Source: an uncultured Verrucomicrobiales bacterium
Lineage (GTDB): Bacteria; Verrucomicrobiota; Verrucomicrobiia; Verrucomicrobiales; Akkermansiaceae
DNA: 64,000 nucleotides
Assembly: GCA_937928545.1 (NCBI GenBank)
Contig: CALGJQ010000017.1
Span: 1-64,000 of the forward strand
Reading direction: 5' to 3'
The notes below the pieces were generated by a model, which saw only the letters and a list, made by a program, of their open reading frames with translations, was not told where the DNA came from and did not search any database. The first letter of the stretch is position 1; every line of letters starts with the position of its first letter. Positions 232 through 50,615 of the stretch are shown piece by piece. The position numbers were made by a program, and so were the translations under genes.

Positions 232-579
232 CTATGCGGCCGCTTCTTCTTTTTCCTTTGCCGTGAAACCCTTTTTCTCGAGGGCTTTGATGAGGTCTTC
301 GACCTTTACTGAACTTTCGGCAGTGACGGTGGTGTCGGCGTCTGATCCGACCTTTTTTCCGACGACTACTTTGGAGACTCCTTTAACGCTTTTAAGTGCA
401 GCCTGCACTTTTTTTGAGCAACCGCCCGCTCAGACGAGGCCAGACACCTCGAGGGTGACCGTTTTTTCATCGGCAGCGACAAGTTCAGCAGTCTGTGCGA
501 CGCCGGCAGCTACGGGAGCGGCCATGGCACCAGCAGAGAGCACCGCGAAGGCTGCAATCATAGTGATTTTGGTTTTCAT
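232..579 (-). CDS. Exported HMA-domain protein, predicted selenoprotein (Sec50)
   Basis: The reading frame gives 115 residues if the TGA at 432-430 is read as selenocysteine. Residues 1-20 form a signal peptide ending in an A-x-A type site (SAGAMA). Residues 39-110 form one heavy-metal-associated fold with the usual strand-helix order. The metal loop reads SGLV-U-AGGCSKKV, so the TGA falls at the first ligand of the family's GMxCxxC motif and C54 is the second, with three residues between them. Past the TGA the frame stays open and HMA-like to a TAG at 232, ending in ALEKKGF as in real HMA domains. A hairpin starts 22 nt after the TGA. A paralogue at 16168-16524 has TGA at the same place. It probably binds a soft metal such as copper or mercury in the periplasm. 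The ligand and metal are inferred. Confidence 0.82.
394..410 (-). promoter_or_regulatory. SECIS-like hairpin in HMA selenoprotein 1
   Basis: On the minus strand a perfect 7-bp stem, AAGTGCA and TGCACTT, closes a GGC loop. The GTGCA stem begins 22 nt after the TGA codon. Bacterial SECIS elements lie within the coding sequence just downstream of UGA and usually have a G in the apical loop, as here. The same GTGCA/TGCAC stem at the same distance occurs in the paralogue at 16299-16311. SelB binding itself is inferred. Confidence 0.6.
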
Positions 580-16167: not shown

Positions 16168-16524
16168 TTATTCGGCTTCTGCCGTGAACTTGGTCTTACT
16201 TTGGAGAGCCGCGATCACGTCGTCTGCTTTCGCAGAGCCGGAGTAAGAGACTTTTCCTAGGGAGACTTTCAAGTCAGAGACGCCATCAATATCAGCAAGT
16301 GCAGACTGCACGCTTTTGACACAACCGCCTGGTCATGTCATGCCGCTGACTTTGAGAGAAACGGTTTGGGCTTCTTCGCCCGTTGCTTCTTCGCCAGTGC
16401 TAGCGGAGGCTTCTTTTTCAGGAGATTTCTTATCATCGGTGCTCGCACCGTCTTTGTCGCCCTTGCAGCTTACGAGGCCGAAGCCCAGAAGCACGCTGGC
16501 GGTGAATGTTGTTAGTTTTTTCAT
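16168..16524 (-). CDS. HMA-domain lipoprotein, predicted selenoprotein (Sec64)
   Basis: The frame gives 118 residues if the TGA at 16335-16333 is read as selenocysteine. The N-terminus MKKLTTFTASVLLGFGLVSC is a lipoprotein signal with C20, followed by a Ser/Glu/Lys linker to about residue 52. The HMA domain then reads VSLKVSGMT-U-PGGCVKSVQSAL, continues through DIDGVSDLKVSLG and ends at a TAA. The SGMT motif and the GGC put the TGA exactly at the first metal ligand, with C68 as the second. Stopping at the TGA would leave a lipid-anchored linker with no domain. A hairpin at +22 matches that of the paralogue at 232-579. It is probably anchored in the outer or inner membrane facing the periplasm, holding a soft metal. 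The metal is not known. Confidence 0.85.
16299..16311 (-). promoter_or_regulatory. SECIS-like hairpin in HMA selenoprotein 2
   Basis: On the minus strand GTGCA and TGCAC pair around a GTC loop, starting 22 nt after the TGA. Flanking AGC and GCT can extend the stem across a TT bulge. The stem is identical to, and at the same distance as, the one in the other HMA gene, while the loop differs (GTC versus GGC). This fits a conserved structural signal. Confidence 0.6.
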
Positions 16525-34276: not shown

Positions 34277-35059
34277 ATGAAATTTCGATTGATCATTGGA
34301 GGAGCAATAGCAGGGTTAGTGCTGATGTCAGGAATCGCTCCCGGAGAAAAATTACCAAAAGCCGACGGTAAGGTGTCTGCTACCACTTTGCCGCTCGATG
34401 CGAAAACGGCCAAGGTGAAGTATGAGACGGCAACTTTCGGGATCGGATGATTTTGGGGGCCAGACTCCGAGTTCGGAAGTCTCAAAGGTGTTTTGCGCAC
34501 GCGGGCAGGATATGCGGGTGGCGAGAAGGAATTCCCATCCTATTACGATCTGGGAAATCATACGGAGGTTTTGTCGATTGATTACGATCCGACGGTGCTG
34601 AGCTATGATGATTTGTTGAAGATTTTTTGGTCGGCTCATCGTTGCGACCAGATCAATCGCTCGCGTCAGTATATGAATGCGGTTTTTTATCACGACGAGG
34701 TGCAGAAGGTGGCGGCGGAGAAGTCTCGTGCCGCGACGGCGAAGAATCAGGGGGTTGAGGTTTCGAAGGTGCAGACTGAAATTCTCCCAGTGGGCAAATT
34801 CACCTACGCGGAGGGCTATCATCAAAAATACTACCTGACTCGTTATCGCGAGGTGCGTGGAGCGCTGACGGCAATTTATAAGGATGGTAAATCCCTCGCG
34901 GATTCCACCGTGGCGACGCGGCTGAATGCCTATCTGGGAAGTGGGATGAAGAAGGACTGGAAGGTTTTTTTAGAGGAGCTGCCAGAGTTTGGGCTGCCTG
35001 AGAAGTTAGAGAAGGCCTTGGAGGAAGCGGCTCAAAATATGGTAGATGCTAAGAAGTGA
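34277..35059 (+). CDS. msrA: Peptide-methionine (S)-S-oxide reductase, selenocysteine form
   Basis: The frame is 260 residues if the TGA at 34448-34450 is read as Sec58. The active-site motif reads ATFGIG-U-FWGPDSEFG, where ordinary MsrA has GCFWG, so the TGA is at the catalytic cysteine. The rest is typical: TRAGYAGGEKEFPSYYDLGN with the GYAGG block, HTEVLSIDYDP, FWSAHRCDQINRSRQY, and AEGYHQKYYL. Ending at the TGA would leave only a signal-like N-terminus (residues 1-22, hydrophobic), and beginning later gives no start codon and no active site. MsrA reduces methionine S-sulfoxide. The N-terminal signal puts it in the periplasm or membrane. Sec forms of MsrA are known in other organisms. A SECIS-like hairpin lies 12 nt after the TGA. 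Confidence 0.93.
34462..34482 (+). promoter_or_regulatory. SECIS-like hairpin in msrA
   Basis: It starts 12 nt after the TGA. AGACT pairs with AGTCT, then CCG with CGG across a bulged A, with a four-base loop AGTT containing G. The distance and the loop G match the E. coli fdhF type more closely than the HMA hairpins do. SelB recognition is inferred. Confidence 0.65.
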
Positions 35060-35417: not shown

Positions 35418-36518
35418 ATGGATCCAAGGTATCTCGAACTCGCCAAACAACTCATCCGCTATTCTACTTCGCTTAAGAAAGGGGAGAAGATTCTTCTCGA
35501 TCTGGTCGATACTCCGGAGGAGATGGGGATTGCGTTGATTCGTGAAGTCCGCGCTCGCAAGGCTGAGCCCTTTCTTCGGCTTGGATCAAATCGCCTCAGT
35601 CGCGAGATGCTAAAGGGGGCTACCGATGAGCAGTATAAGGTGACGGCGAAGCATCTTCTTACTGAGATGAAGGATATGGATGCCTATATCGCGATTCGTG
35701 GATCTCACAATATTAACGAGACGAGTGATGTGCCGGCTCAGCGGATGGGTGCTGCGATGAAGCATATGCGTAAGGTGCTGGACCATCGGGTGAAGAAAAC
35801 CAAGTGGTGTGTTCTGCGCTGGCCTCACGCCGCGATGGCTCAGCAAGCAGGAATGAGCACGGAGGCCTTTGAGGATTTTTACTTCAAGGTTTGTCTGTTG
35901 GATTACAAAGCTCTTTTGCCTTCGATGAATTCTTTGAAGAAGGCGATGGAGAAAGCGAATGATGTTCACATTTTGGGGAATGGGACCGATTTGAAATTTT
36001 CGATTAAGGATATTCCGGCAATTGTTTGTGGTGGCGAATACAATATTCCTGATGGGGAGGTTTTCACTGCTCCGGTGAAAGATTCGGTGGAAGGGGTGAT
36101 CGCTTACAATGCGCCTACGATCTACCAAGGGATTGCTTTTGATGGGATCACTTTGACCTTTGAGAAGGGGAAGATTATCAAGGCGGTGGCCGCTGGAGGG
36201 AAGACGAAGGAGTTGAACAAGATTCTCGATAGTGATCCCGGAGCGCGATATGTGGGTGAGTTTGCGATTGCCTTTCATCCGCTGATTCGTGAGCCGATGC
36301 GCGATATTCTTTTTGATGAAAAGATCGCGGGGAGTTTCCACTTTACGCCGGGGCAGGCTTACGAAGAAGCCGACAATGGGAACCGCTCGACGGTTCATTG
36401 GGATATGGTGAATATCCAACGGAAGGATTATGGCGGAGGTGAGATCTACTTCGACGGGAAACTGTTTAGGAAAGATGGTCGATTCCTTGCGAAGAATCTT
36501 GATAAGCTGAACGGATAA
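35418..36518 (+). CDS. M29-family aminopeptidase
   Basis: The protein has 366 residues, the length of the thermophilic (AmpS/aminopeptidase T) M29 family. It shows [20 protein letters not shown], the metal-site regions [20 protein letters not shown], the block [25 protein letters not shown], and [24 protein letters not shown] near the end with the histidine and acidic ligands. These dimeric metallopeptidases remove N-terminal residues in the cytoplasm. It is the start of a run with hisD and the TPM-like genes but is 40 nt away from hisD. Confidence 0.92.
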
Positions 36519-41081: not shown

Positions 41082-41894
41082 TTAGCGGGAGAGCTTGGGC
41101 GTTGATGTGATCGCGTAATGTTGTTCAGCGATTTTCAAGACTCCAGGAAGGGTAGTTTCACCTTCTGGAGAAAATTCAGATCTCGGGACGGAGAGGAGAA
41201 GCGAGCCATCTTTTTGAAATGAAAATTCCTGTTTCTTGTCGGACGAAATTTGACGTTCACTTGAGAAGAAATAGAGCTCACTGGGTGGACATTTTTCGAT
41301 CCCTGAGAAGAGCACTTTTATGATCTCTGCGTCAGGAGCGCTCAGGAGGGTTGCTTTAATTTTCTCTGAGGCTTTGGGAAGTTCAGCGCGAGCCTTTTGA
41401 ATGTGAGCTTTTGCTGTGGGGTCTTCGATGGCTTCATTTTTCACAGGGAGAGTGAGTTCGAAGGTCTTGAACCCTGGGAAGCAGCCTTTGGCGCAGCACA
41501 TCCATGCGGTCTTAGCGCTTAGCTTTACTGAAGTCGCATCGATCTTCTTCGGGGGAGTGATCGTGACGAGGAGGGTGACGTCTCGTTCGTAGCCATGGCA
41601 GGGGTATTCCGCCATGAAGCTTTTTTCAGGGTAGGGCCATGAGATTTCTGAAGCTTGAAAGCCCTCGGGGAGACTCCACTCGATGGACGTCTCTACTCCG
41701 ACGATGCCGGGGTTCTTCCAGTAGGTATGAAAGCCCTCGAAATGATGGATGTGAAGGCCAACCGTAAAAGCTTGGCCGGGTGTTACGCTGCGGTTTTCTG
41801 AGATCAGATCGATCGAGAGGCCCGGACCCTTGAGCTGAGGGTCATCGGCCCGTAGCGAGGCAAAAAGAATGGCGAAGATTAGGAGGGCCCTCAT
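41082..41894 (-). CDS. Exported protein with DsbD N-terminal-like domain
   Basis: The protein has 270 residues, with a signal peptide ending in FASLRADD. The domain matches the DsbD-alpha type: FTVGLHIHHFEGFHTYWKNPG, VGVETSIEWSLPEGFQAS, and AKTAWMCCAKGCFPGFKTFE with two close Cys pairs. The rest, to residue 270, is beta-rich. In DsbD this domain receives electrons from the membrane part and passes them to periplasmic partners. Here the membrane and thioredoxin parts are missing, so the gene is a stand-alone version. A role in periplasmic thiol reduction, perhaps for Sec-containing proteins, is only inferred. Confidence 0.68.
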   Translation of the reverse strand: MRALLIFAILFASLRADDPQLKGPGLSIDLISENRSVTPGQAFTVGLHIHHFEGFHTYWKNPGIVGVETSIEWSLPEGFQASEISWPYPEKSFMAEYPCHGYERDVTLLVTITPPKKIDATSVKLSAKTAWMCCAKGCFPGFKTFELTLPVKNEAIEDPTAKAHIQKARAELPKASEKIKATLLSAPDAEIIKVLFSGIEKCPPSELYFFSSERQISSDKKQEFSFQKDGSLLLSVPRSEFSPEGETTLPGVLKIAEQHYAITSTPKLSR

Positions 41895-42734: not shown

Positions 42735-42915
42735 TTGGTCTATTGCTTCGCAGCCGTCGCCGGAAAGGAGGCGGTGATTTTGGGAAGCCCGTCGCTCGGG
42801 CAAGAAATAGATGGGGAATTCGGTGCCTTCAGAAATGAGGAATTCCGAAGCGGTCCCGCCACTGTGAGTTTTACTTTTTTGAGTGAAACAAGCCAGATCG
42901 CCAGCCTGAAGTCTT
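42735..42915 (+). promoter_or_regulatory. Cobalamin riboswitch
   Basis: The leader of the receptor gene holds the class features in order: GGGGAATTCGGTG at 42813-42825, GAGGAATTCCGAAGCGGTCCC at about 42838-42858, the B12 box GCCACTGTGAG at 42858-42868, and AAGCCAGATCGCCAGCCTGAAG at 42890-42911. It ends about 50 nt before the ATG at 42965. It represses the downstream gene when cobalamin is high, probably by sequestering the ribosome site or by a terminator. Confidence 0.9.
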
Positions 42916-42964
42916 CTGAAAATTGGGAACCTGCGGATTTCAGGGGCCTTTTTTGAAAATATAA

Positions 42965-44818
42965 ATGACCATTAAAAAGAACGTCCTTTTTGGACTGACG
43001 GGATTGTTGAGCGCAGGTGAATGCCTTGCTCAGGCAGTCGAAGAATTGGAGCCGCTGACTGTTTTGGCCCGCCGGATAAACTCTGCAAGCGACGATAATG
43101 CCTCCTCGGTAGGTGTCATTACCGCTGAAGAGTTGGTTCGCCAACAACGCCATCTCCTCTTAGAGTCGCTCAATCTCAATCCTGGGACGCAAGGCCTCTC
43201 GACGGCGGGGTTAACTGGAAATACTGGCACCGTCATCATTCGAGGTCTGTCTTCGAGCTATCAGCAATTCATTGTTGATGGGGTCAAGATTGCGGATATT
43301 TCAAATCCGGTCGGAAGCTTTCTTGGAAATGCTAATTTGGGTCAAATCGACCGGCTAGAAGTTCTTCGAGGCCCTCAAAGTGTTCTCTTTGGCACTGGCG
43401 CAGGTGGGGGAGTGGTTGGCTACGAAACGGCAGTAGGAACCGGCGATCCGAGCTTTAAGCTTTTCGGGGAAGGTGGAAGTTTCGATAGCTACCGGACGAG
43501 TTTAAGTTCGCAGGGGCAGTTGGGTGATTTTTCCTACGGTGCCGAAGTGGGGCGTCAGTTCACCTCGAATGACACTTACGCAGCTCTCCCGATTCATGAT
43601 TTTGAGCAGAACTATGCGAACCTTGCACTAGAGTGGCAGTTACGTGACGACTTACGATTGAAGTTGAGTTATCGAGGGACTGATAATTTTCTCAAAACTC
43701 GATCAATCACGGGCTTTGGGACTTCAGATTCCGAGATTCAGACTGAGACATCGCTCTTTGCCTTGAATGCCTTTTATGAAGTCAATCCAAGTTGGCAATC
43801 GCGTCTTACTTTGGGCTATTATCAGGAAAACTATGTGGGCGATTTTGTTTCGGCATTTGGGGCGTCTGGATTTGGGATCGACTACGAGAGATATACCTTC
43901 AACTGGAACAACGAGATTGAGGTATCAGATTCCTTGACCGCAGTGGCTGGACTCGAGATTGGAAGGAGTGATTTTTCCAACACGAGCGGACGTGAGGTTG
44001 ATCAGACAAATTACGGAGTTTACACCAATCTTTACTACCGTCCTATTGATGACCTTTTGCTTGAGGCGGGGGCTCGCTACGATGAGCATGATGAGTTTGG
44101 TGGAGATACGGCCTGGAGTCTCGGGGCAGTGTATACCATCGATTCATCGGGAACCCGTCTCCATGCTCGATTGAGCGAGGCTTTTCGCAATCCAACTCGT
44201 CTTGATTCGGAGTTCTTTGTTTCTCCGTTTTCAACTCAGCTCGCGAACTCGGATCTTAAGTCTGAGGCGATTCGAGGCTTCGAATTTGGTGTGACTCAAG
44301 AGTTTGGAGATCACAAGGCGGAGCTTACCTACTTTGATCAAGAAATTGATGATGCCGTGGTGACCCGTTTTCTTGGAATGAGAACGAATCAGCGGGTGAA
44401 CTCTGCCGGAAAGTCTTCCGTGAGCGGTTTGGAATTTGCGGCAAGTGGTCACTTTATGAATGAAAGTGTAAATTACCGTCTGGCTTTCACGGCTCAGTTT
44501 GATGAAGAGGTCATTGATCTCCCTGATCATCTAGCGAGTTTCGATGTGAATTACGATGCGGGCTCATTTTTGGTTGGAGCAGGGGTAAGCTATGCCGATG
44601 GCGCTGCGTATCTGGCTTCAGGAAATCCCCAAACGGATGATCGTCTTTTGACTCGGGTGTATGGAAAATATCGCTTGAACGAAAGTCTAAGCTTTCATGC
44701 TCGGGTAGAGAATGTCTTCGATGAAGAATACGAGCTTTTCTCAGATGCCTTTGGTCCGGGAAGTGAAGTGCAGGGACCGGGTAGAGCCTTCTATCTAGGG
44801 GCTAGCTATACTTGGTAA
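42965..44818 (+). CDS. btuB: TonB-dependent receptor, probably for cobalamin
   Basis: The protein has 617 residues, close to BtuB length. It has a signal peptide ending SAGECLAQA, the TonB box ELEPLTVLARR, a plug domain at about 45-160 (SSVGVITAEELVRQQRHLLL, GTVIIRGLSSSYQQFIVDGV, LEVLRGPQSVLFGTGAGGG), and a 22-strand barrel ending in FYLGASYTW with terminal Trp. The cobalamin riboswitch in front strongly supports the substrate. It sits in the outer membrane. No btuFCD or TonB genes are adjacent, so energy coupling and inner-membrane uptake lie elsewhere. Confidence 0.92.
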   Translation: MTIKKNVLFGLTGLLSAGECLAQAVEELEPLTVLARRINSASDDNASSVGVITAEELVRQQRHLLLESLNLNPGTQGLSTAGLTGNTGTVIIRGLSSSYQQFIVDGVKIADISNPVGSFLGNANLGQIDRLEVLRGPQSVLFGTGAGGGVVGYETAVGTGDPSFKLFGEGGSFDSYRTSLSSQGQLGDFSYGAEVGRQFTSNDTYAALPIHDFEQNYANLALEWQLRDDLRLKLSYRGTDNFLKTRSITGFGTSDSEIQTETSLFALNAFYEVNPSWQSRLTLGYYQENYVGDFVSAFGASGFGIDYERYTFNWNNEIEVSDSLTAVAGLEIGRSDFSNTSGREVDQTNYGVYTNLYYRPIDDLLLEAGARYDEHDEFGGDTAWSLGAVYTIDSSGTRLHARLSEAFRNPTRLDSEFFVSPFSTQLANSDLKSEAIRGFEFGVTQEFGDHKAELTYFDQEIDDAVVTRFLGMRTNQRVNSAGKSSVSGLEFAASGHFMNESVNYRLAFTAQFDEEVIDLPDHLASFDVNYDAGSFLVGAGVSYADGAAYLASGNPQTDDRLLTRVYGKYRLNESLSFHARVENVFDEEYELFSDAFGPGSEVQGPGRAFYLGASYTW

Positions 44819-48734: not shown

Positions 48735-49793
48735 CTAAAAGAGTTCGTTGGAGACTGAGGGAGGTGTTTCCTTCGCTTCGGGATCACTGGCACCTGCTAC
48801 GGGAGCTAAGGGTGCGACGAGGGGAGCAGGAAGGGGGAACTTTCTTTCAAAGATTCCCGGCACCGTTTCGTTCGCAGTGGCGTAGGCGTCTTTTACCATT
48901 TCTAACTTCGCATCGAGATTATCGACGTAATGCAGAGCGTGCGCTTCGGGAGTGCGAGGGAGAGTGGGGGAGCCAAAGTCGTATTGCCCGTGGTGCGAGG
49001 CGATCAAGTGAAGAAGGTGGAGACGAACCTCTTCGCTGGCTGGTTCGACCTCTTTCCAAGTTTCCAGTGGTAAGTCTCGCCAGAGTCGATTGGCCAATTC
49101 CATCCCCAAAGGAATGTGGCCGAGCATCTCGCCATGTAGAAGGTGGAGTTGGTTAAAGCCTTCTTCGGGATAGGTGTTTTCCCAGAGCTTTCCGCAATCG
49201 TGGAAGAGAACTCCCGCAATCATGAGGTCGCGATTCAGGTAAGGATAGACTCCACAAATCGCGGTGGCAGAGCGCATCATCTGCGCGACGTGTTCGACTA
49301 GACCACCGCGCCGGGCATGATGGTTTCTCCGAGCGGCTGCCGTTCTTCGGAATCGATCTTCGAACTGCCCGACGAATTCATCGCAGATCGCCTTCAGTCT
49401 GGGGTCATTGATTTGACTGAGAAAGTCGACAATGTCGGCCCAATCGTCATTTTGTTTTTCTCTCGTCGCGGGGTCGCCAGCTAAGAATTCACTCTTCTCT
49501 TCCTCAGTCAGAAATCGGAATTTCCAGCCCTTGCCATCGACTCCGTATTGGTTCTGGGTCCACTCGCCTGAGAAGTGAATTAAGGTTTCGGGGCCGATTT
49601 CTTCGGCGGCGCTAAACTGTGGGTGATTGTTCCAAACTTTCAGCGTGATTGTTCCGGTGGCATCGGCGATGGCCCATTCGAGGTAGGGCTTGCCTCCCTT
49701 CGTTTCGCGCTGCTTGATCGCTTGGAGTTGGGCGCAAAAAGACGCCTCAAGCGGGCTCTCGTTCGTGGTGGCTAAAAGTTCGCTAATCGACAT
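48735..49793 (-). CDS. YhaM-like 3'-5' exoribonuclease (OB fold plus HD domain)
   Basis: The protein has 352 residues. An N-terminal OB-type domain (about 15-110: GGKPYLEWAIADATGTITLKVW) is followed by an HD phosphohydrolase domain: RRGGLVEHVAQMMR, LFHDCGKLWE (the HD motif), HLLHGEMLGHI, and LIASHHGQYDFGSP. YhaM proteins degrade RNA or single-stranded DNA from the 3' end with Mn2+. The Pro/Ala-rich C-terminus (about 320-352) is lineage-specific. It is cytoplasmic. The next gene lies 3 nt upstream on the same strand. Confidence 0.88.
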   Translation of the reverse strand: MSISELLATTNESPLEASFCAQLQAIKQRETKGGKPYLEWAIADATGTITLKVWNNHPQFSAAEEIGPETLIHFSGEWTQNQYGVDGKGWKFRFLTEEEKSEFLAGDPATREKQNDDWADIVDFLSQINDPRLKAICDEFVGQFEDRFRRTAAARRNHHARRGGLVEHVAQMMRSATAICGVYPYLNRDLMIAGVLFHDCGKLWENTYPEEGFNQLHLLHGEMLGHIPLGMELANRLWRDLPLETWKEVEPASEEVRLHLLHLIASHHGQYDFGSPTLPRTPEAHALHYVDNLDAKLEMVKDAYATANETVPGIFERKFPLPAPLVAPLAPVAGASDPEAKETPPSVSNELF

Positions 49794-49796
49794 GTC

Positions 49797-50615
49797 TCAA
49801 CAGAGACGAATCATGTCCTTCATCGATTGGAACCAAAGGAAAAAAAGCCCTTTCGTGGAATACTTAAAGTGTCCGTCGTCTGCCATCTCGATCAGGCCGC
49901 AGTTCAGGTTATGGTCAATCTGGCGCCGCATCTCTTCTTCCACCTGTTTCAGGACTTCATCGGGATCAGGGAGCATCAAAGATTCCGCCGGGATTGCTAG
50001 TTTTTCGAGGTGCCGTTCGTGATCTCGGTAGATCGCTTCAAATTGATTTCGTTCGCAGGGGAGGTGGTCCCAATGGGCTTCGGGCGAATGCTTGAGCGTG
50101 GGCGAGAAGGGATAGTTCGTGGTGTGAACCGAACGCCCATCCGGAGCGCGAGAGGAAACAGTGACGAAGGCAAAGGCCACTTGTTCTTGCTCGCAAAGGC
50201 AAACGGCGGCAATCGATTTGGCCTCAGGATTCCAAAAGAAGCGAAAATATTGCTGCATCCCAGCCCAGTCCCAGCCGCTGTCGGTGACGTGGTCGAATTC
50301 GGCTTCCTCGATCTCTCGGATCAGACGAGAAGCATTCGGGAAGTAGTCCTCGGAAGGAGGTTTCTTGAATTCGATGCGATTTTTAAGAGGAATTCGCTGC
50401 TTTCGAACTCGAGTCAGGAGATCAAACCAGGGGAGGAAAAACCAAAGTCCCGCCCCTAAAAATCCCGCGCAAATGCTGCCACAGAGAAAATACAAAGCGA
50501 GAAAGGAGGCCGCCAGAAAAGTCACCGCCCCCAACTTTCTCAAAAACAAGGTCCGGCACGAGCGCAAGGCCACGCCGACGATGAGGCAGGCGAGGACGAT
50601 GAGGAAGGAGTGCAT
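49797..50615 (-). CDS. Hypothetical membrane protein
   Basis: The protein has 272 residues. Two N-terminal membrane helices lie at about 1-20 (SFLIVLACLIVGVAL) and about 30-65 (LGAVTFLAASFLALYFLCGSICAGFLG). The remainder is soluble and probably cytoplasmic: FPNASRLIREIEEAEFDHVTD, WDWAGMQQYFRFFWNPE, and DHLPCERNQFEAIYRDHERHL. I recognise no family. The gene lies 3 nt upstream of the YhaM-like gene, so it may be co-expressed. It is divergent from the gamma carbonic anhydrase gene. Confidence 0.6.
   Translation of the reverse strand: MHSFLIVLACLIVGVALRSCRTLFLRKLGAVTFLAASFLALYFLCGSICAGFLGAGLWFFLPWFDLLTRVRKQRIPLKNRIEFKKPPSEDYFPNASRLIREIEEAEFDHVTDSGWDWAGMQQYFRFFWNPEAKSIAAVCLCEQEQVAFAFVTVSSRAPDGRSVHTTNYPFSPTLKHSPEAHWDHLPCERNQFEAIYRDHERHLEKLAIPAESLMLPDPDEVLKQVEEEMRRQIDHNLNCGLIEMADDGHFKYSTKGLFFLWFQSMKDMIRLC

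Follow-up and report, generated by a model that had tools for sequence, protein, structure and literature searches.

One of the genes in the window (the whole stretch of 64,000 nucleotides analysed here) reads as an MsrA with a TGA codon in the place of the catalytic cysteine. The question raised by this locus is whether the codon is decoded as selenocysteine (Sec) and, if it is, on which side of the inner membrane and with which partners the enzyme may work.

The msrA frame and its UGA codon

34277-35059, forward strand: Sec-MsrA gene, 260 amino acids with Sec at residue 58 (Sec58), terminal TGA at 35057-35059
34448-34450, forward strand: UGA codon for Sec58 in GIGUFWG, aligned with the MsrA catalytic Cys, TGA in 49 of 49 scorable orthologs

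Translation of the window gives a single MsrA frame on the forward strand, interrupted by one internal TGA. The protein matches the Pfam PMSR family (PF01625; E 6.5e-37, 127.6 bits against a gathering score of 23.7) and barely passes the NCBIfam msrA equivalog (108.7 bits, cut-off 108.1). Among proteins of solved structure the best match is the selenoprotein MsrA from Clostridium (Alkaliphilus) oremlandii (CoMsrA; 3.5e-49 over residues 48-242), with Sec58 aligning to catalytic residue 16 (GCFWG) of that enzyme, and the MsrA motif G-C/U-F-W-G is present as GUFWG. This confirms an MsrA frame with TGA at the catalytic Cys, as had been described in an earlier note made from the sequence of the window alone. 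Residues Y89, E97, Q131, Y132, Y181 and H182 are invariant or nearly so in the ortholog alignment, and the active-site set of CoMsrA (Tyr47, Glu55, Gln89, Tyr90, His137 and Tyr140) has its counterparts in the window protein. By family knowledge the protein is predicted to reduce MetO-S. The Sec-MsrA also matches (3.8e-12) the C-terminal half of NCBIfam NF041383 (VPGUxxT family thioredoxin-like (seleno)protein, type 2), a match suggestive of a family in which thioredoxin and MsrA are fused.

The 387 genomes examined from the order hold about 50 close orthologs, almost all with one TGA. The codon is TGA in all 46 orthologs with the GUFWG motif and in three further ones with GUFWH, SUFWH and GUFWT, and none of the 49 has Cys; two more orthologs of the order are fragments beginning 3' of the codon and were left out of this count. 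Named genomes were scanned as well, a set that overlaps with the order-wide one; the sequences came from Akkermansiaceae, Rubritalea, Roseibacillus and other Verrucomicrobiales, and all 49 that reach the codon have TGA. A chance reading of the TGA is excluded, since every scorable ortholog keeps it. Outside the Verrucomicrobiales clade, distant relatives from Planococcus-type Firmicutes (Planococcus, Sporosarcina), haloarchaea (Haloarcula) and Atribacteria carry Cys at the codon, and one relative from a Dehalococcoidia MAG (L119) carries TGA. The MsrA tree needs one change between Sec and Cys, with L119 and L065 on long branches of unsure placement.

These comparative data already rule out the reading of the TGA as a true stop, which would leave either a broken gene or a shorter protein beginning downstream, at the TTG at 34493. 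A mechanical ORF of 188 amino acids does start there, and automatic annotation would probably pick it, but it lacks the catalytic motif, while L26, D41, T53, G55 and G57, all ahead of the TGA, are invariant among the orthologs. The TGA in 49 of 49 orthologs, the covariation of the SECIS and the Sec machinery of the genome further contradict a stop.

The genome examined (3.98 Mb in 75 contigs, about 92% complete) carries a tRNA-Sec scoring 59.2 bits against the Rfam cut-off of 47, together with selA (7e-144), selB (3e-95) and selD (6e-114), the last likewise containing a TGA, at ASCGGUASK. The sel genes for which the earlier note had advised a search are in place, and the lack of a tRNA-Sec, which it had named as a refutation, did not turn up. 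Across the order selA is found in 47 of the 50 genomes with this msrA and in 71 of the 337 others (Fisher 2.4e-24, kinship ignored); the three msrA genomes without selA (G250, G326 and G200) are all drafts. Near the full selA there are two short SelA-like matches (G000:C5:11411-11764, locus L010), perhaps remnants of a second, broken copy, or else a distant relative.

Decoding of the UGA as some other amino acid, through an alternative code or near-cognate read-through, appears very improbable. The open frame itself is all that was found in its favour. Against it, genes of the region, msrA among them, terminate with TGA; selA, selB, selD and tRNA-Sec are present and a SECIS lies 3' of the UGA; and the UGA codons of MsrA, DsbD, SelD and HMA genes fall at Cys positions of redox or metal sites. 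Sec in the catalytic place of MsrA, as first proposed from the window, stands on the Sec machinery, the TGA in 49 of 49 orthologs, the covarying SECIS and the association with selA, and on this comparative evidence recoding of the UGA to Sec is very well supported.

The SECIS hairpin

34463-34481, forward strand: SECIS core hairpin GACUCCG-AGUU-CGGAAGUC, from covariation and controls

The hairpin starts 12 nt 3' of the TGA, where it had been noticed before, and is now accompanied by covariation. Its stem pairs GACUCCG with CGGAAGUC, the apical loop (AGUU or GUU) contains G, and the GUU lies 23-25 nt after the U of the UGA. Across the orthologs two stem registers alternate, GAG-UUC-GGA and CAG-UUU-GGG. 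Orthologs of the GAG (Glu) register have a CCG/CGG stem closed by the loop AGUU; the codons that follow are UUC in 30 of 30 and GGA in 28 of 30 sequences, the others having GGT or GGC. Those of the register with CAG or CGG have a longer stem (CCCA/UGGG or CCCG/CGGG) and the loop GUU, and all 16 of them use GGG for Gly (Fisher 1e-12). Mutual information with the state of the Glu/Gln codon stands at 0.93 at the Gly third base (+9) and at 0.55 at that of Phe (+8), the next best of the remaining codons tested reaching 0.21 and the median being 0.05. The register switches at least six times on the ortholog tree, so the two states are not one inherited block.

Pairing in the stem amounts to 0.95 in the Sec orthologs against 0.46 in 28 Cys relatives; 200 synonymous recodings average 0.55 and never exceed 0.62. 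The mean hairpin energy is -9.1 kcal/mol in the Sec orthologs against -3.6 in the recodings. Folding the 71 nt that surround the TGA, from the window sequence alone, gave no signal (z 0.76), which shows the weakness of a single-sequence folding test for this SECIS, and RNAalifold on the ungapped ortholog set gave a weak consensus. The cause of both results is the alternation of the two registers; each register scored on its own rows gave a clear result. Judged by these comparisons, the hairpin is a SECIS inside the coding sequence, compensated at synonymous sites.

Probable envelope targeting and further predicted selenoproteins

34277-34348, forward strand: N-terminal hydrophobic targeting segment MKFRLIIGGAIAGLVLMSGIAPGE, predicted from hydropathy, signal peptide or N-in anchor
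34643-34645, forward strand: Cys123 codon in HRC, candidate resolving Cys, Pro at this position in C. oremlandii MsrA

The N-terminus of the window MsrA reads MKFRLIIGGAIAGLVLMSGIAPGEK. Its hydropathy peaks at a Kyte-Doolittle 12-residue mean of 2.6 at residues 5-16, and the AlphaFold2 model has a helix at residues 4-17, with low confidence in that region. No clear AxA cleavage site was seen in this N-terminus; the positive charge of MKFR before the helix suggests an N-in orientation with the catalytic domain facing the envelope. From this anatomy the MsrA is probably exported to the envelope. A strongly hydrophobic stretch within the roughly 55-62 residues ahead of the Sec is present in 32 of 46 orthologs, the window protein included, and the other 14 begin later or are devoid of it. 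Among MsrAs without the segment are those of Roseibacillus ishigakijimensis KCTC 12986 (L095) and R. persicicus KCTC 12988 (L100).

Cys123 lies in HRCDQxN and aligns with Pro81 of CoMsrA, a few residues before the L2 loop (86-91). Every one of the 32 orthologs that possess the hydrophobic stretch has it, as do five of the 14 without. This association may reflect inheritance; there are only three independent pairs of Cys123 and segment on firm tree branches, too small a number for a phylogenetic test to decide. On anatomical grounds Cys123 is a candidate for the resolving residue.

The sole DsbD_TM match of the genome is a full-length DsbD of 731 residues (L161:934-3126, reverse strand; G000:C1:50489-52681), composed of DsbD_N, TM and thioredoxin-like domains. 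In the thioredoxin-like domain a TGA stands in for the first Cys (DYTADWUATC), and WUxxC with TGA stands at the same place in 25 fetched loci, including that of this genome. Counted by hand over the genomes with a clear call among the matches listed, Sec-DsbD is present in 21 of the 23 with an N-terminal-segment MsrA against four of the eight without (p 0.026, kinship ignored); two genomes (G009 and G245) have an MsrA with the segment yet DsbD matches without TGA. The TGA-bearing DsbD matches of G303 and G272 (no selA) were not counted as Sec-DsbD, the stretch fetched being without WUxxC. On anatomical grounds, DsbD is the probable electron supplier of the envelope Sec-MsrA.

The single MsrB of the genome (L168; G000:C69:10119-10472) has a catalytic Cys and an N-terminal hydrophobic segment resembling that of the Sec-MsrA. 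Repair of both epimers of MetO in the envelope is thus plausible for this genome. At 41082-41894 on the reverse strand, 6 kb from msrA, is found a DsbD_N-like protein standing alone (Pfam 4.8e-16), which begins like a signal and contains WMCCAKGCFPG; it is possibly another envelope redox protein.

Two more genes of the window carry a UGA at a metal-site Cys:

16168-16524, reverse strand: HMA-domain lipoprotein (Pfam HMA), lipobox LVSC, UGA at 16335-16333 in GMTUPGGC
232-579, reverse strand: HMA-domain protein (Pfam HMA) with signal peptide, UGA at 432-430 in GLVUAGGC

Among the matches listed, the TGA is present in 21 of 21 for the first gene and in 30 of 33 for the second, one of the latter matches being the other HMA gene; by these counts the two are genuine, conserved TGA genes and predicted selenoproteins, as the earlier note had it. 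Both proteins also match the NCBIfam UxxU_metal_bind and CopZ models, below the cut-off. As to the claim that all three selenoproteins of the window are exported, it agrees with the signal peptide and the lipobox of the HMA proteins and with the hydrophobic N-terminus of MsrA, and for MsrA is a prediction that does not extend to all orthologs, 14 of 46 being without the stretch. The broader suggestion of selenium chemistry in the envelope is supported, and gains further from the conserved TGA in the DsbD of the same genome, by which the predicted envelope selenoproteins number at least four (MsrA, DsbD and the two HMA proteins). In another genome (G023:C31:102734-103186) a pair of HMA-Sec matches are direct neighbours, and one of them contains two TGA codons in frame, a possible tandem of HMA selenoproteins.

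The density of three selenoprotein genes in 64 kb, to which the earlier note had given weight, could indicate a functional cluster, as the conserved TGA genes lie at 0.4, 16 and 34 kb of one contig. This we regard as most unlikely. The genes are 16-18 kb apart with unrelated genes between them, and the msrA neighbours, a DUF455 gene and the gene at 35418-36518, are common to 17 of 51 loci, the nearest ones. In relatives the three genes are on different contigs, so the local density is probably a coincidence. Synteny over the 51 loci revealed no operon partner of msrA, neighbours being common to close relatives only. A six-frame scan of the window for other TGA-split frames found only pairs resembling adjacent genes or chance frames, e.g. 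48735-50615 on the reverse strand. A cobalamin riboswitch (42765-42923, forward strand) is located just upstream of a gene on the same strand (42965-44818) that reads like a TonB-dependent receptor.

Proposed mechanism and relation to known enzymes

34841-35047, forward strand: C-terminal helical domain of C. oremlandii MsrA type, from the structure match of residues 48-257

The AlphaFold2 model of the window MsrA, built with 40 orthologs, has a mean pLDDT of 90.8, and its residues 48-257 superpose on residues 6-210 of CoMsrA (PDB 4LWJ) with Z 23.6 over 205 residues at 41% identity; of the other MsrA structures the best gives Z 17.9, and the PDB search found none closer to the model than CoMsrA. 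The alignment over residues 48-257 indicates that the window MsrA has the C-terminal helical domain, in which ADSTVATRLNAYL is conserved in the ortholog alignment, and in CoMsrA this domain is reported as essential for the active site (PMC4333827). Native Sec in GUFWG (PDB 4LWJ, 4U66), a gapless HxxxxxxxxRQYM loop and the C-terminal helical domain are common to both enzymes. The window MsrA is therefore of the C. oremlandii type by sequence and fold, and the kind of enzyme is already known.

CoMsrA is described as having no Cys, as 20-fold more active in its Sec than in its Cys form, and as using glutaredoxin, not thioredoxin, as reductant (PMC4333827; for recycling also PMC4479559). The window enzyme could then be imagined as Clostridium-like throughout, with a single redox residue, recycling by glutaredoxin or a small thiol, possibly a location on the cytosolic face, and Cys123 irrelevant. 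This is a possibility, if a doubtful one: the closest structure is that 1-Cys, glutaredoxin-recycled enzyme (PMC4333827, PMC4479559), and orthologs without the N-terminal segment are often without Cys123, so that the MsrA fold does not need this residue. Against it are the retention of Cys123 both in the window MsrA and in each of the 32 orthologs that carry the segment, the MKFR before the helix, favouring N-in with the catalytic domain outside, and the Sec-bearing DsbD of the genome. CoMsrA has neither Cys nor an N-terminal hydrophobic segment, unlike the window MsrA with its C123 and targeting segment; a 1-Cys enzyme has Cys only at the catalytic place, and by the presence of C123 the window protein falls outside this class.

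The reading we prefer, and hold to be probable as a whole, is that of an envelope Sec-MsrA of CoMsrA type, made through UGA, SelB and SECIS, resolved by Cys123 and re-reduced by Sec-DsbD. Sec58 would be inserted by recoding of the UGA through SelB and the SECIS within the coding sequence, and the N-terminal hydrophobic segment would place the protein on the envelope face of the inner membrane. There Sec58 may attack oxidised methionines of envelope proteins at their sulfoxide sulfur, and the selenenic acid would be resolved by forming a Se-S bond within the protein, most likely with Cys123. Electrons carried across the membrane by DsbD, with the Sec of WUATC in its thioredoxin-like domain, would then re-reduce the MsrA. 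The recoding apparatus, the conserved UGA, the covarying SECIS, the MsrA family and fold type and the UGA in DsbD can all be read from the sequences themselves. More tentatively, one may think of a selenium MetO-repair relay in the envelope of these Verrucomicrobiales, in which Sec-DsbD passes electrons to an anchored Sec-MsrA, C123 replaces glutaredoxin, and exported Sec-HMA proteins bind metal.

The lineage retains Sec, with no reversion to Cys in the scored orthologs, in an enzyme that probably acts beyond the inner membrane; DsbD, from which it is likely to receive electrons, has Sec too. If this is true, the reason for paying the selenium cost in envelope repair becomes directly testable. 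The two named Roseibacillus strains with MsrA make Sec insertion testable in culture. Automatic annotation is likely to truncate all these selenoprotein genes.

Sec in the catalytic position of MsrA has been known since 2006-2008 from marine metagenomes (GOS, PMC2398784) and Syntrophobacter (PMC1794560); with these and the C. oremlandii enzyme, the family is, as the earlier note had said, not new. The Cys relatives from Planococcus, Sporosarcina, Haloarcula and Atribacteria are of the same MsrA type at 37-47% identity and have TGC or TGT and no SECIS-like stem, unlike the window gene with its TGA and SECIS. A term search of PMC2398784 and PMC1794560 met no mention of Verrucomicrobia in the text covered, nor a description of the envelope pairing; no paper on a periplasmic Sec-MsrA together with DsbD turned up, and in the literature searched we did not find this lineage and the predicted envelope location described. 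A UxxC form is recorded for the Sec protein listed as Trx-like 2, thiol disulfide interchange protein (cd02953, PMC2398784), which the present DsbD resembles, with the difference that here the DsbD is full-length and the genome also has a Sec-MsrA. In C. oremlandii the Sec-MsrA is reported, by a title cited in PMC4333827, to be paired with a Sec-glutaredoxin, and Sec-DsbD with Sec-MsrA would be the envelope parallel to that pair.
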